From a virus: a DNA stretch of 37,182 bases. How positions within the stretch are numbered: the stretch's first letter is position 1; the number at the start of each line of letters is the position of its first letter. The notes beneath the pieces were generated by a model. It did no database searches and was not told the origin of the DNA. It saw only the letters and a list, made by a program, of their open reading frames with translations. The position numbers and the translations under genes are program-made. Of the stretch, positions 7,041-11,780 are shown one piece after another. The stretch covers positions 1 through 37,182 of IMG/VR virus record IMGVR_UViG_3300037196_000486. One strand, 5' to 3'.

Positions 7041-7393
7041 TGTGTGCCTCCAAGCAGCCGGGCGAGAACGCCGTGCGAGATCAGTGCGCCGGCGACGGAA
7101 TAAAGCGTGTAGATGGCGCCGAGCAGGACGGCCGATCTCAGGGCATAGCTGGCTGGTTCGCTCGCCGCCTCAAGCCAGTCGCAGACGCGGTCGAGTCGAT
7201 CTGCCTCAGGCACCAAGCGCGCCGCCAGCGCCCACCAGGTGCAAAGCCGAACGCCGATGCGAACGTGGCTGCCGCGCGCGCTTGTGGTGAGCGAGCCCTC
7301 ACGCTGCGAGATGAGTTGAAGATCGTCTGCCTCGGGTATCGCGTCGAGCAGGCGGCGAAGCGATTGCGGCGTGGATTCTCTGGAAAAGTTCAC
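7037..7393 (-). CDS. Putative membrane-associated early protein
   Basis: A 118-residue protein starting with GTG at 7393, which overlaps the stop of the ATPase gene as GTGA. The first 80 residues are polar and likely soluble. Residues about 82-112 contain one or two hydrophobic segments (ASYALRSAVLLGAIYTLYSVAGALISHGVLA), so the C-terminus is probably in the membrane. Its position directly after the transposition ATPase, where Mu has the small kil-region genes, is noted, but there is no sequence evidence for that function. Confidence 0.58.
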   Translation of the reverse strand: MNFSRESTPQSLRRLLDAIPEADDLQLISQREGSLTTSARGSHVRIGVRLCTWWALAARLVPEADRLDRVCDWLEAASEPASYALRSAVLLGAIYTLYSVAGALISHGVLARLLGGTQ

Positions 7394-8355
7394 TGCATTG
7401 CTCCTTCGGTTTGCGAATCCTCGCGCGCGGCAAGCCCCTCGCGGATCTCGCGGATTGCGGCCATCAGGCGGCCAATGCTGATGTAGCGCCGCGTCTGCTT
7501 ATCCACGCGAACGCTGATGGTGGCCAGCTCGATCTGCTGGCGAATAAGGTTGGAATCGAGCGCGGCGCCGGGCAGCTCGCTGCGCAGTATGCCGGCAGCC
7601 TCTTCGGCCGTTACCGCGGGCAGCGTGACTTTGTCGCTGATGCGGCGCTCCAATTGTTCGAGAGTCCCGGCAAAGCGCGCGAACGTCCGGTCCAGTTGGT
7701 GCGAGCCGGCGAAGCACAGGCTGAAGCGCGGGTCTTCGTCCAAAAGTTCGCGCACGGTTTCCAGGCAGGGAATGTCCAGATGCTGCGCTTCGTCGAAATA
7801 AAGCACGGTCCGGCTGCCTTTAAAGTCCCAACGCAGATTGCGGATGACGCGGTCGACGCTTACGTTGGCCTCGGACCCGCAGACCCCGGCGATGCGGCGC
7901 AGCAGATCGCGAGGCGTGATCTGCGCGCGGCAGTAGACGCGGAAGATGAAGTTTTTCCGCTCGGCAGTGCGCTGGGCGTTGTGCTCCGCGATCAAGTGGC
8001 GGGCGATGTCCGTCTTGCCCGAGCCTGGCGGCGCGTAGACCAGATAAATCTGCGGCCGTTCCAACAGCCGCGCAAACACGCCGCGCATCACCTTGACGGT
8101 GCTTGTCTCGTAGATGTTGTGGCTTACCAGCGTGTCGGTGTCCAGCGGGTTCTGCTCTATGAACAGCAGCAGCGCGCCGCAGATGGCCCCAGTGTCTTTG
8201 CGGATGTCGTTGTACCGTCCGCTAAGAAAGCTCTGCACCGTGCTGTAGGCGTAGCCGAGCCGCCGCGCGAAATCGACCGGGCTCATGCCGGAGCGATTGA
8301 GATATTCGGTGGCGAGCCGTTGCACCCTGGCCGGAGTGATTTGGTTATTGTTCAT
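7390..8355 (-). CDS. B: MuB/TnsC-type AAA+ ATPase, transposition target-DNA activator
   Basis: A 321-residue protein coupled to the transposase by an ATGA overlap. Residues about 7-50 are an N-terminal HTH (FARRLGYAYSTVQSFLSGRYND), as in MuB. The AAA+ core follows, with Walker A PPGSGKT at 109-115, Walker B VLYFDEA at 184-190 with the DEAQH motif, and a sensor-like CFAGSH segment. In Mu, B forms ATP-dependent filaments on target DNA, activates transposase A and gives target immunity. The length matches MuB (312). Gene order A then B on one transcript, with overlap, is the classic transposable-phage arrangement. Confidence 0.92.
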   Translation of the reverse strand: MNNNQITPARVQRLATEYLNRSGMSPVDFARRLGYAYSTVQSFLSGRYNDIRKDTGAICGALLLFIEQNPLDTDTLVSHNIYETSTVKVMRGVFARLLERPQIYLVYAPPGSGKTDIARHLIAEHNAQRTAERKNFIFRVYCRAQITPRDLLRRIAGVCGSEANVSVDRVIRNLRWDFKGSRTVLYFDEAQHLDIPCLETVRELLDEDPRFSLCFAGSHQLDRTFARFAGTLEQLERRISDKVTLPAVTAEEAAGILRSELPGAALDSNLIRQQIELATISVRVDKQTRRYISIGRLMAAIREIREGLAAREDSQTEGAMQ

Positions 8356-10202
8356 GCGTCCTTTTTCGTCTGTAAGAACATGCGTGCTGCCTGGGCCGGT
8401 GTTGGCGGCGCTGTGAGGGTGATGTGGCCTTGGCCCGGCTTGCGGTTGCGTTGCGTAACAACGTCTTTGCCGGTTTCGCCGGCGGAGAGCTGCAGGCGGT
8501 TGGCCATGGCCTCAAGCGGAGAAACCGCTCCGTTGGCGCGGGCCGCGCGGGCCACCAGCTCGATGCATTCGCGATTGCCCTTTTCGAGCCGGCGCCGCGT
8601 GGCCATGCTGTCAGCGATCCGCGCCTGGGTCTTGGGATCGTAAGGGGCGAAGCGAACAAGCTCTTCGCGCTCCAGCCAGGCCACAAAGTTCCCGTCCATG
8701 TCCAGAGCGGCCACGTTATCGAGGTCGGCCGCATCGTGAGCGACGATCACCTGGCGCTCATTCAAAAAGTGCATGTCCGCCCATCCCTGTTGATCGGTGG
8801 GCGTGTAGCGATGCTTGTTCAGGGTCACTGCGCACTCGCTCACCTGGCGCACAGAGTGCTCGGCCATCAAGAGTGCGAGAGTCGCGTAATCGGGAGCGGG
8901 CTTTTGCGCGGGGTTGAGGTTGGCTTCGAACGCCTGGCGCGGGGTCGCGCCTTCGAAGCCCTCACCGGTGTGAACGGTATCCGCGTATTCTTCGAGCCAG
9001 CCGAGGCAGGCAAGGATGAACTGGCTGGCCTTGGGATGTTTCGATTCGCCCACGCGGCCGGCTTTTAGAAGTCGGCGGTGCTTCATCATGGCCGCTTCGG
9101 TCGATTCTGGCCGCGTGAACGGGCTGCCCGATGTGTAGGTGGGCCAAACTTTGTCGAAGCGCTCGTGGAGGGTTCCGAAGAATCTTTCGATGGCCTTGCT
9201 CTGCGGGTGGTGCGGGATGCAATGGGTGACCGCGATATTGAGCCGCGCCAGAAATCCCGTCGCGGCGATCTGGTCAAGTTCGGCTTGCTTCCAGCTCTCA
9301 GGCGCAAGCGCCGCGTCTGTTTCGCACCCTCGCACCGCGCCACGGGCCACCTTGCGGTAATCTTTGCCATTGTCGACGTAGAGGTGCTCGGGAGGGCCGT
9401 ACTTCGATATGCTACGCCTCAAACAGGCAGCGATTGCACGGGAACTTCCCTCCCAACAAAACGTGACCCCCGTGATCAATCGCGACCGGTAATCCATCAT
9501 GGCGGAGAGGCGAATTCTGATCGGCGCGCCCCACTCCACGTTGTCGAAGGAATCGTTCTGGACCTCAACATCGAGGATGGCGTGGTCCGCGATCAGAACG
9601 GAGTTTGCAAAAACGTCAGTGAAGCCGCGCGTCAGATAGGGGCTCATCCGCTCTCTGTATATCTTTTTGCCTTCGCGGGCGTAGACGGTCAGCGACGCGG
9701 GCATCGCGTTCAGCCAGCGGCGGACGGTGGCCACGCTGGGCAGGTCCTCGGCGGGAATCTCAAGCACGGCGGCTTCGCGGACGATGCTCTCGTGACATAC
9801 GGCGGCGCTGGCGCGGCAGTCCAGGAATAAATACGCAACGAGCAGCGCGGCTTTCGAGTGCTCCTTGAAGAATCGGCTCTGGCCTTTGTCGCTGCGTACG
9901 CGGTCAGCGAGGGCGGGCACGCCGCCGCGCTTATAAAGCTCCAGCCAACGCCAGATCGTTTTCTCACAGTTGCCGCTAGTTTCAGCGACGTAGGCAACCA
10001 TCCTCGACACGCTTGTGACGCGGGTTCCGTCTTTCATCTGAAGTCGCCCGAAGCGCTGCGGGTCTTTTTGATAGTCGAGAACCTGATTCACCACAGCAAG
10101 GCGTTGCTCGGCTTGTTGCTGAGCCTCCGGGTCGGGCAGAAGCACGCGCTGCGGCGCGGCGACGGGCATCGGAATTGGCAAAGAGAGCGCGAGCTGGGCC
10201 AT
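8352..10202 (-). CDS. A: Mu-type DDE transposase (MuA homologue)
   Basis: A 616-residue protein, near the 663 of MuA. Residues about 63-100 carry an HTH (SRMVAYVAETSGNCEKTIWRWL), and a second DNA-binding part follows up to about 170. The catalytic rve core (about 195-350) shows all three acidic residues: Asp206 in VLIADHAILD, Asp277 in YVDNGKD and Glu339 in KAIERFFG. A Mu-type C-terminal barrel lies around 430-495 (ALTLNKHRYTP-like region), followed by a basic tail that would contact ATPase B. It catalyses strand cleavage and transfer at phage ends, for integration and for replicative transposition. The ATG at 10202 follows the previous stop by 3 bases. All key residues are present, so it is probably active. 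Confidence 0.95.
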   Translation of the reverse strand: MAQLALSLPIPMPVAAPQRVLLPDPEAQQQAEQRLAVVNQVLDYQKDPQRFGRLQMKDGTRVTSVSRMVAYVAETSGNCEKTIWRWLELYKRGGVPALADRVRSDKGQSRFFKEHSKAALLVAYLFLDCRASAAVCHESIVREAAVLEIPAEDLPSVATVRRWLNAMPASLTVYAREGKKIYRERMSPYLTRGFTDVFANSVLIADHAILDVEVQNDSFDNVEWGAPIRIRLSAMMDYRSRLITGVTFCWEGSSRAIAACLRRSISKYGPPEHLYVDNGKDYRKVARGAVRGCETDAALAPESWKQAELDQIAATGFLARLNIAVTHCIPHHPQSKAIERFFGTLHERFDKVWPTYTSGSPFTRPESTEAAMMKHRRLLKAGRVGESKHPKASQFILACLGWLEEYADTVHTGEGFEGATPRQAFEANLNPAQKPAPDYATLALLMAEHSVRQVSECAVTLNKHRYTPTDQQGWADMHFLNERQVIVAHDAADLDNVAALDMDGNFVAWLEREELVRFAPYDPKTQARIADSMATRRRLEKGNRECIELVARAARANGAVSPLEAMANRLQLSAGETGKDVVTQRNRKPGQGHITLTAPPTPAQAARMFLQTKKDA

Positions 10203-10205
10203 TTC

Positions 10206-11009
10206 TTACGCGACCCCTGTATTCTTGGCTTCGATTTCGGCATCCACGCGTGACATCTCGGCGTCGCGGGTGGCCATAGCATCGCGAATGGCTCTCAAAG
10301 TTCTTCGAGGAGACGAGTTTGAGGCCGCATGGTGTACCGCCGAGGGGTTCTGCTTTAGATATCTGGAGACCTCTGCATACACCCCGTAATACTTGCCGCC
10401 CGTTCCGAATTGCGCCTTTTCCGCCTGCGTGAGCGGGGCGTCGGGACCGGCATTTGGGGCGTCGGGACCGGCATTTAAGGCGGCGTCCACGATGGCCATC
10501 TCGGCTCTTAGCGCGGGCAACACATCGTGGCCGGGCCATACCCCGCGAGTCACATTTAGGACGCTTGATCGACTGATGCCAAGCCTCTTCGCGACGCGCG
10601 TAGGGATGCCGAAATAGCGACCGCCAATATGAAATTCAGCTAACTCATCGAATGCCAGCGGAACGGGGGCGAAAGATATCTCAGCATCGATCTGACGGAT
10701 GGTCTCTCGGATAGCCGCGACTGTGTGGGGAACGGAACTTCTTCCGTAGGCGGCCTTCGCCACAGTCGATGGATGAAGTTGTAGCGTCAGGGCTGTGCGG
10801 AAGAACGCCCCATGATATTTGCCGCCGGTCAGGAAATCTTTAGGATCGTACTCGGAAAGGACGCCCGCCAGCGGGTGCGCGCCGCGGCGGCTTAGATTTT
10901 TTTTGGCCGCCGCGCGTAAGGTCTTGTCGGCGATGTGCCCGGAAACAAGGACCGTCATGCAGGCGCAGGCGAGATCTATCGTCAACGAAAGGCGACTGGG
11001 CTTGCTCAT
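10206..11009 (-). CDS. Early regulator-like protein with three tandem HTH-like units
   Basis: A 267-residue protein; the ATG at 11009 overlaps the upstream stop (ATGA). After an N-terminal part of about 60 residues it contains three copies of a unit of about 47 residues with the pattern GG-K/R-Y-x-G, a helix with V-A-x-x-L, then S-x-V and a closing helix with R-x-x-x-x-x-D-A-E/A. Examples are KYHGAFFRTALTL, RYFGIPTRVAKRLGIS and KYYGVYAEVSRYL. The middle of each unit (VAKRLGISRSSVLNVTRG) reads as an HTH. Copies two and three are linked by a duplicated NAGPDAP heptad. The neighbouring small gene (11006-11230) has one copy. It probably binds repeated DNA sites as an early regulator or transposition accessory; I know no named family for it. 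Confidence 0.72.
   Translation of the reverse strand: MSKPSRLSLTIDLACACMTVLVSGHIADKTLRAAAKKNLSRRGAHPLAGVLSEYDPKDFLTGGKYHGAFFRTALTLQLHPSTVAKAAYGRSSVPHTVAAIRETIRQIDAEISFAPVPLAFDELAEFHIGGRYFGIPTRVAKRLGISRSSVLNVTRGVWPGHDVLPALRAEMAIVDAALNAGPDAPNAGPDAPLTQAEKAQFGTGGKYYGVYAEVSRYLKQNPSAVHHAASNSSPRRTLRAIRDAMATRDAEMSRVDAEIEAKNTGVA
10435..10476. repeat. Two exact tandem 21-base copies within the repeat-HTH gene
   Basis: A 21-base unit (10435-10455) is repeated exactly at 10456-10476, in frame, giving the duplicated heptad NAGPDAP in the linker between the second and third HTH-like units of the encoded protein. Exactness at the DNA level points to a recent slippage or recombination event, so linker length may vary among related phages. 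Confidence 0.9.
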
Positions 11010-11230
11010 GCCGCGCGCCTTTCCTTGCGCCGGCTCTCGTCCCACACTTCGATGGCCGAAAGGACGCCGCGGGCAATCCGGTCTGAAACGGTCTGGCCGA
11101 AAAAGACGCGGCGAACATGACTGGGCCAGGTGCCGAAGTCACGGGCGACCTCAGAATAGAAGCCATAATATGGAGCTTTCCCGCGAAATCTGCGCCGGGT
11201 TGCGATAAGCTTGGAGGCCAAAGTATTCAT
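11006..11230 (-). CDS. Single-unit HTH-like protein, first gene of the early operon
   Basis: A 74-residue protein from the ATG at 11230; an alternative ATG lies at 11245. After a short basic N-terminus it contains one copy of the unit seen three times in the next gene: PYYGFYSEVARDFGTWPSHVRRVFFGQTVSDRIARGVLSAIEVWDE, here written in pieces as YYGFYSEVARDFG, SHVRRVFFGQ and VLSAIEVWDE. The end is very basic (SRRKERRAA). A first-in-operon small DNA binder matches the place of Ner in Mu, which represses early transcription, so a Ner-like role is a fair hypothesis. The predicted early promoter would start transcription only a few bases before 11230. Confidence 0.65.
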   Translation of the reverse strand: MNTLASKLIATRRRFRGKAPYYGFYSEVARDFGTWPSHVRRVFFGQTVSDRIARGVLSAIEVWDESRRKERRAA

Positions 11231-11240
11231 CACGTAGAGG

Positions 11241-11269
11241 AGCATATCGATGGTCGATAAATTTGTCAA
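11241..11269 (-). promoter_or_regulatory. Predicted early promoter (leftward), sigma70 type
   Basis: On the minus strand a perfect -35 TTGACA (11269-11264) is followed, after exactly 17 bases, by TATGCT (11246-11241), matching the sigma70 consensus at 10 of 12 positions weighted to the key bases. The predicted start point is about 11234, only about 4 bases before the ATG at 11230, so the early message would be almost leaderless unless a downstream start is used. The promoter overlaps the repressor's start codon and a perfect palindrome. Confidence 0.68.
11245..11259. promoter_or_regulatory. Perfect palindrome, candidate operator between early promoter and repressor start
   Basis: TATCGA-TGG-TCGATA is a perfect inverted repeat with 6-base arms and a 3-base centre. 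It lies between the -10 and -35 elements of the predicted leftward early promoter and covers the repressor ATG (11250-11252). A dimeric regulator bound here would block early transcription and could hinder repressor expression, a compact autoregulatory switch. The binder could be the XRE-type repressor or the repeat-HTH proteins; the sequence does not say which. Confidence 0.6.
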
Positions 11270-11780
11270 GATAAAAATCGGCAGTCGAAGTTCGGCCAAC
11301 CTCGTCCCTGCGAAAATTAGAGCGTTGCGGGAGAGTCGCCACATGAAGCAAGTGGCTTTCGCTGAGTTCCTTGGGATCAGTCAAGGGACCCTTTCAGAGT
11401 GGGAAAGCGGCACCCAGGAACCTTCCCCACTGGCCTTGGCGGCTCTCGGTCGAATGGACTACGAAAACGCAACCTGGTGGTATGAACAGGCCGGCCCAAG
11501 GTTCGCCGAGCGGCTCAAGCTGCAAGGCGTGATCCGGGAAGTGAGAGCGGAAATCAAAGAAGCGCGGGAGGAGCGCGTGGATCCCGATTTGCTCGCCTGG
11601 ATCCTTCAGGCGCTTGACTCGGCGTCGAATCTCATTGGCGTCGTGCTCCCGTTGAAGAAATACGCGCGGATCGTGGCTGCGGTCTATGATGAGTGCCAGG
11701 AATCGGGCGAGCGTGACGCCGCGATGGTAGAAAAAGCGGTGAGAGCCGCATGCGCACCGTCCAACGAGAAAGTGAGATAG
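11250..11780 (+). CDS. XRE-family (Cro/CI-type HTH) regulator, candidate lysogeny repressor
   Basis: A 176-residue protein. The ATG at 11250 has an AGAGGAG ribosome site 7 bases upstream. Residues about 22-70 form an HTH_3 domain: KIRALRESRHMKQVAFAEFLGISQGTLSEWESG in pieces, with FAEFLGIS, QGTLSEWESG and PSPLALAAL, and the usual Q-x-x-x-A and S-x-x-S-x-W-E-x-G positions. The C-terminal half is helical (EVRAEIKEAREERVD) and has no S24/LexA-type protease motif, so induction is unlikely to work by RecA-stimulated self-cleavage. It is divergent from the early operon, with only 19 bases between the starts, and its start overlaps a palindrome. The repressor role is inferred from position and fold. 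Confidence 0.78.
   Translation: MVDKFVKIKIGSRSSANLVPAKIRALRESRHMKQVAFAEFLGISQGTLSEWESGTQEPSPLALAALGRMDYENATWWYEQAGPRFAERLKLQGVIREVRAEIKEAREERVDPDLLAWILQALDSASNLIGVVLPLKKYARIVAAVYDECQESGERDAAMVEKAVRAACAPSNEKVR

Follow-up and report, generated by a model that had tools for sequence, protein, structure and literature searches.

The window, by which we mean the whole stretch of DNA analysed here (37,182 bases), is a partial record of a Mu-like phage from IMG/VR. Its right edge cuts through an open reading frame in the late region on the tail side, which makes the record incomplete, with one phage end missing; positions 1 to 300, at the left edge of the record, carry no coding sequence and are possibly a phage end or a host junction. 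The early genes run leftward from a divergent XRE repressor in the order 74-residue protein, 267-residue protein, transposase A and MuB-like ATPase, and the opposite strand encodes the endolysin, terminase, portal, head and neck proteins. The features of the early region are as follows.

7390..8355, minus strand: MuB-like transposition ATPase, phrog_296 (family match).
8352..10202, minus strand: MuA-like transposase A (phrog_310), lacking an additional N-terminal domain that some relatives have (family match, comparison).
10206..11009, minus strand: three-unit predicted HTH array protein, 267 residues, with an N-terminal hydrophobic helix (residues 6-40) and then three HTH units (AlphaFold model, profile match).
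10254..10415, minus strand: array unit 3 (U3), about residues 199-252 (sequence, model, profile).
10435..10476, minus strand: two copies of a 21-bp direct repeat, each encoding NAGPDAP, in the linker that joins units 2 and 3 (read from sequence).
10473..10637, minus strand: array unit 2 (U2), about residues 125-179 (sequence, model, profile).
10677..10841, minus strand: array unit 1 (U1), residues 57-111 (sequence, model, profile).
11006..11230, minus strand: one-unit predicted HTH protein, 74 residues, first gene of the early operon, at the position of ner in Mu (AlphaFold model, profile match); modelled helices at residues 3-14 (N-terminal), 24-32 and 36-43 (HTH) and 50-73 (long helix).
11241..11269, minus strand: predicted early promoter with the boxes TTGACA and TATGCT separated by 17 bp, lying 10 bases ahead of the one-unit ATG (sequence; a TTGAC box is similarly placed in nearly all relatives).
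11245..11259, no strand assigned: palindrome with arms TATCGA and TCGATA around a central cca, within the promoter spacer (sequence, comparison with relatives).
11250..11780, plus strand: divergent XRE-family (HTH_3) repressor (family match).

Both repeat-bearing reading frames were confirmed at these coordinates, the stop codon of the longer one being included in 10206-11009. They overlap as ATGA, and only 3 bases separate the stop codon of the three-unit gene from the tnpA start at 10202. An earlier note on this DNA had placed the two genes first in the early operon, directly before transposase A, and the gene order bears this out. The one-unit gene would have a near-leaderless start, judging from the promoter position. 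The repressor ATG at 11250 sits within the palindrome, and the true repressor start is unsure. The NAGPDAP duplication looks as if the linker length drifts through slippage.

The two proteins are built from a module of about 50 residues, present three times in the 267-residue protein and once in the 74-residue protein. We compared the units by pairwise alignment against 2000 shuffles. Four pairs scored above the shuffle maximum (given in brackets), namely U1-U3 at 86 (52), U2-U3 at 63 (49), U1-U2 at 49 (40) and U3-single at 45 (42), and the weaker pairs were U1-single (p=0.0065) and U2-single (p=0.0265). Moreover, an HMM built from relatives alone, with the window sequences excluded, was run on the 658 open reading frames of the window and recovered the array protein at E 5e-29 (domain E-values 8e-7, 6e-12 and 2e-7) and the single-unit protein at E 7e-12, the next-best reading frame lying at E 0.026. 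Profiles of the one-unit and array families also align to each other in hhalign with 98.3% probability (E 1.9e-14). The earlier proposal that the one- and three-unit proteins share a module is thus confirmed by shuffles, by the relatives-only HMM and by hhalign.

The AlphaFold2 models, computed from alignments of relatives, contain an HTH in each unit of both proteins (at a pLDDT of 82.8 in the array and 89.9 in the single-unit protein), so that the structure prediction agrees with the HTH nature suggested at the outset. Every modelled unit has two HTH helices (e.g. 68-76 and 80-87) and then a long helix; in the array units a short helix and a G-G-K-Y turn precede the HTH, and the array model opens with a 35-residue helix (6-40). 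We therefore regard the HTH fold of the units as well supported by the models, and a LacI/Cro-like character as likely. The unit profile finds the Lac repressor as its nearest solved structure (E 0.019), and Foldseek places LacI-family headpieces, 434 Cro, SinR and other HTH domains at or near the top as weak matches, with the LacI-family matches at an rmsd of about 2.1 over 40 residues and E-values of 1 or more, and none of its matches falling at E<0.001. The earlier statement that no named family covers these proteins also holds, since neither window protein has a family in Pfam, PHROG or NCBIfam. The array protein (P0001) scores 15.7 bits against P22_Cro, for which the Pfam cut-off is 30.2, and the one-unit protein (P0002) has no Pfam match. 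Individual relatives weakly match HTH_3, P22_Cro, YdaS and phage repressor PHROGs, with HTH_3 reaching E<0.01 in 4 of 35.

Direct sequence searches of phage records, viral contigs and genome contigs yielded no close relatives of the array protein, and relatives were reached through searches with MuB and the portal protein instead. These gave many, including three contigs of Acidobacteriaceae MAGs from peat bog and fen. In the three MAGs all matches to the unit profile lie within the same prophage loci, save two weak ones, and among 297 Acidobacteriota genomes only 5 carry a unit at E<1e-6; in this sample, then, the module seldom occurs outside these phages. Only 8 viral contigs matched a signature pattern built on the array units, and two of them yielded new arrays.

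We compared the architecture of 32 distinct early regions, the window included. In all 32 a single-unit gene precedes the transposase gene, at the place that ner holds in Mu, and 5 hold a second single-unit gene. The multi-unit array is present in 10 and missing from 22: two-unit arrays occur in L049, L060, L063, L069, L076 and L115, and three-unit arrays in the window, L048, L066 and L114. On the transposase tree the presence of the array requires 8 changes. The slot between the single-unit gene and the transposase is accessory, being occupied in phages without an array by single-unit genes, the phrog_2345 regulator, a PAP2-like membrane protein, a DnaJ-like protein or unknown proteins. The phrog_2345 transcriptional regulator tends to give way to arrays: it is found in 2 of 10 array phages versus 15 of 22 others (p=0.021 uncorrected, about 0.22 once corrected for the transposase tree). 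Several array proteins share the N-terminal segment MS..PSR.EQLG.LLTAMIAVI.GGSSDLL, and since the segment also heads proteins in which no unit is detectable (L034, L031/L075), it is a separable part. The N-terminal helix, with a hydropathy of 1.67 in the window array and up to 1.99 in relatives, is hydrophobic enough that it may serve as a membrane anchor.

How do these proteins vary? The window and L048 are 86% identical in MuB and 72% in the transposase, versus 28% in the array and 30% in the single-unit protein. The closest array to that of the window is the one in L066 (44%), a phage with a different type of transposase (39%). In the array units conservation is seen in the G-G-R/K-Y-x-G turn (1.4 bits) and in the C-terminal helix, and the exposed positions of the recognition helix have a mean of 2.96 bits, like ordinary surface, versus 2.06 in the single units, where H, R, V and A are held at fixed places of that helix. 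The array units are basic, with a mean net charge of +5.8 (+4, +4 and +5 in the window). Because they stay basic, we favour the interpretation that the array units read different DNA over a relaxation of DNA reading. In published Mu-like phages of P. aeruginosa the repressor and Ner-like proteins are likewise variable (PMC4378225).

The early promoter (11269-11241, minus strand) carries the palindrome TATCGAccaTCGATA in its spacer, and many relatives have a palindrome of other sequence at the matching place. One might expect it to be the operator of the one-unit protein. However, the comparison excludes this, since the palindrome covaries with the recognition helix of the repressor and not with the one-unit protein: the window and L050, L058 and L072 carry TATCGAccaTCGATA, L075 carries its core, and all five have the repressor recognition helix SQGT-I/L-SEWE; L050, L058, L072 and L075 nevertheless differ from the window in their one-unit protein; and L051, L063, L068, L057, L060 and L074 have near-alike one-unit proteins with various spacer sequences. 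The promoter palindrome is most likely the repressor operator. No relevant direct repeats or additional inverted repeats lie near the switch. No binding site was found for the single-unit or the array protein. The covariation between repressor recognition helix and promoter palindrome is in itself a natural data set on the operator specificity of phage repressors.

The earlier note also read the array as a duplication whose parent gene is still adjacent, a reading that our analysis does not bear out. In a tree of units (51 columns, poorly resolved) the array units cluster, mostly with array units of other phages (4 changes versus 14.5 in shuffles), window U2 pairing with the second unit of L049, and U1 of the window joining U3. 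The tree gives no support to the array as a recent duplicate of its neighbour, although grouping all four window units in one clade is statistically acceptable (p 0.22). Since unit 1 of L060 falls among the single-unit proteins, the tree suggests that arrays arose more than once.

The observations to be accounted for are the repeat and its conservation, the predicted HTH folds, the gene order, and the variation in unit number and recognition positions. From here on we infer, for both proteins, DNA binding, targets and direction of regulation. We propose that this transposable phage uses both as early regulators, with a single small HTH module as their building block. The one-unit protein would replace Ner: made first, from the early promoter, it would be expected to act at the switch region, damping the repressor and early promoters. 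With unlike recognition helices on three units and flexible linkers between them, the array should bind a longer, asymmetric composite site whose sub-sites differ from one another, probably within the control region of the phage itself, and would tune early and transposase expression. We hold the chances to be about even that the single-unit protein is a regulator at the Ner position and the array an auxiliary early regulator reading a longer asymmetric site. The HTH folds with their HTH neighbours and family matches, the basic charge, the operon position with a one-unit gene in all 32 early regions, the conserved scaffold beside variable recognition positions and the trend toward replacement of phrog_2345 count toward this proposal; against it count the failure to find a binding site, the lack of any Foldseek match at E<0.001, the weakening of the phrog_2345 trend after tree correction, an N-terminal helix that may be a membrane anchor, the 22 of 32 phages that manage without an array, and the freely varying recognition positions, which could mean that binding was lost.

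That last possibility deserves consideration in its own right. The array could be a degenerate or structural repeat that kept the HTH fold and lost DNA binding, serving as a protein scaffold, as a membrane-linked protein or, through pairing with the single-unit protein, as an antagonist. Such a role would suit unconstrained recognition positions beside a conserved turn and C-terminal helix, as well as the hydrophobic N-terminal helix, but the units are still basic and some array proteins still match DNA-binding HTH families, so we consider it unlikely. A transposition helper, in which the array binds the transpositional enhancer or the phage ends and stands in for a missing enhancer-binding domain at the N terminus of the transposase, would fit the tight placement of the gene before tnpA and a window transposase without that domain. 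This replacement looked promising on the first 14 relatives and did not survive the inclusion of L066, L114 and L115: the N-terminal domain is present in 4 of 10 array phages versus 12 of 22 others (p=0.70), 7 of 8 independent pairs show no difference, and L051, L054-L057, L064, L068, L074, L027 and L034 have neither the domain nor a multi-unit array. We rate a helper role as very improbable. The extra domain itself (Q-x-T-G-W-S-D), found in the transposases of L050, L058, L059, L061 and others, divides these phages into two sets, and the division falls on one branch of the transposase tree.

Could the array instead act on competitors? For superinfection exclusion, each unit would target the operators or early promoters of a different rival and silence incoming genomes. 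The slot is accessory and highly variable, the window and L048 share so much of MuB and the transposase and so little of the array, and in Pseudomonas phage Fc02 the slot right after ner carries a gene that shows exclusion (PMC9936078). However, the array lies within the early lytic operon and is presumably silent in the lysogen, which leaves exclusion quite unlikely. A broader picture, speculative and in our estimation somewhat unlikely, is a natural modular DNA-reading array, in which phages would set one to three LacI/Cro-like units into an unchanging scaffold while diversifying and swapping their recognition helices, each array reading its own composite address and perhaps silencing its own or rival promoters. 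Zinc-finger arrays would offer a parallel in the manner of working.

Returning to the proposed pair of early regulators, Mu Ner (phrog_769) and Ner-like proteins are likewise small HTH proteins (74-75 residues) encoded by the first early gene, divergent from the repressor and just before transposase A, and Ner-like proteins of transposable phages likewise evolve fast together with the repressor. Here, however, the module, which is probably LacI/Cro-like, has a Y-x-G turn, and a multi-unit paralogue follows. No homology to Mu Ner was detectable by hhalign (probabilities 1.6 and 3.6), and Mu Ner matches phrog_769 at 7.5e-32, whereas P0002 and the other one-unit proteins do not. On these comparisons the single-unit protein occupies the ner position but is not a Ner homologue. 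The LacI-family headpiece is the best neighbour by sequence profile and fold, at marginal E-values, and resembles the module in its V-A-x-x-x-G-V-S ... V-x-x-V HTH followed by a helix; yet the hinge helix and periplasmic-binding-like ligand core of that family are absent from proteins of 74 residues or of repeats only, and the tandem arrays within a single chain differ from it. Cro/HTH_3 repressors (434 Cro, P22 Cro) are likewise fold neighbours, have weak family matches among several relatives and act in the same functional setting, but the window proteins fall under the Pfam cut-offs and the tandem arrays again differ. The phrog_2345 regulator of transposable phages, which occupies the same operon slot in relatives and tends not to co-occur with arrays, is unrelated in sequence. 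In Myb R1R2R3 proteins adjacent sub-sites are read by imperfect HTH repeats, two or three in number, each with three helices and about 50 residues. The working would be similar in outline, with longer linkers and a bacterial phage origin here; we claim no homology, and the three regularly spaced tryptophans per repeat of the Myb type are absent from the unit alignment.

With a DNA-reading surface that varies freely in the array units, the two proteins seem to form a phage regulator of a new and modular kind, one that, on our reading, works like a phage early regulator but with a new tandem architecture, belongs to neither the Ner nor the LacI family and falls below the HTH_3 cut-offs. Tandem HTH arrays with variable unit number and recognition helices are unusual among phage regulators. 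If the units bind in series, they would show how a short phage HTH is extended to longer asymmetric sites, and the ten arrays would form a natural set for learning the reading rules. More immediately, the gene at the Ner position gains a name and a place in a large group of transposable phages whose hosts are acidobacteria of peat and soil.

Some further observations concern the genes around the slot. The PAP2-superfamily membrane protein lies before the transposase at L051:5333-6148 and L056:4707-5519, the latter above the Pfam PAP2_3 cut-off. Directly before tnpA in L054, L055 and L056 is a protein of roughly 210 residues with a DnaJ-like C-terminus (tested in L055, just under the Pfam cut-off). 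At L027:2334-2768 (minus strand) a hybrid reading frame, consisting of a transposase fragment and one array-type unit, stands beside an intact transposase and is a trace of recombination in the slot. Finally, the one-unit genes of relatives have a nearly invariant C-terminal R/K-A-A ahead of the ATGA overlap, an ending that the ribosome-binding site of the next gene together with this overlap may explain as well as a degradation tag.
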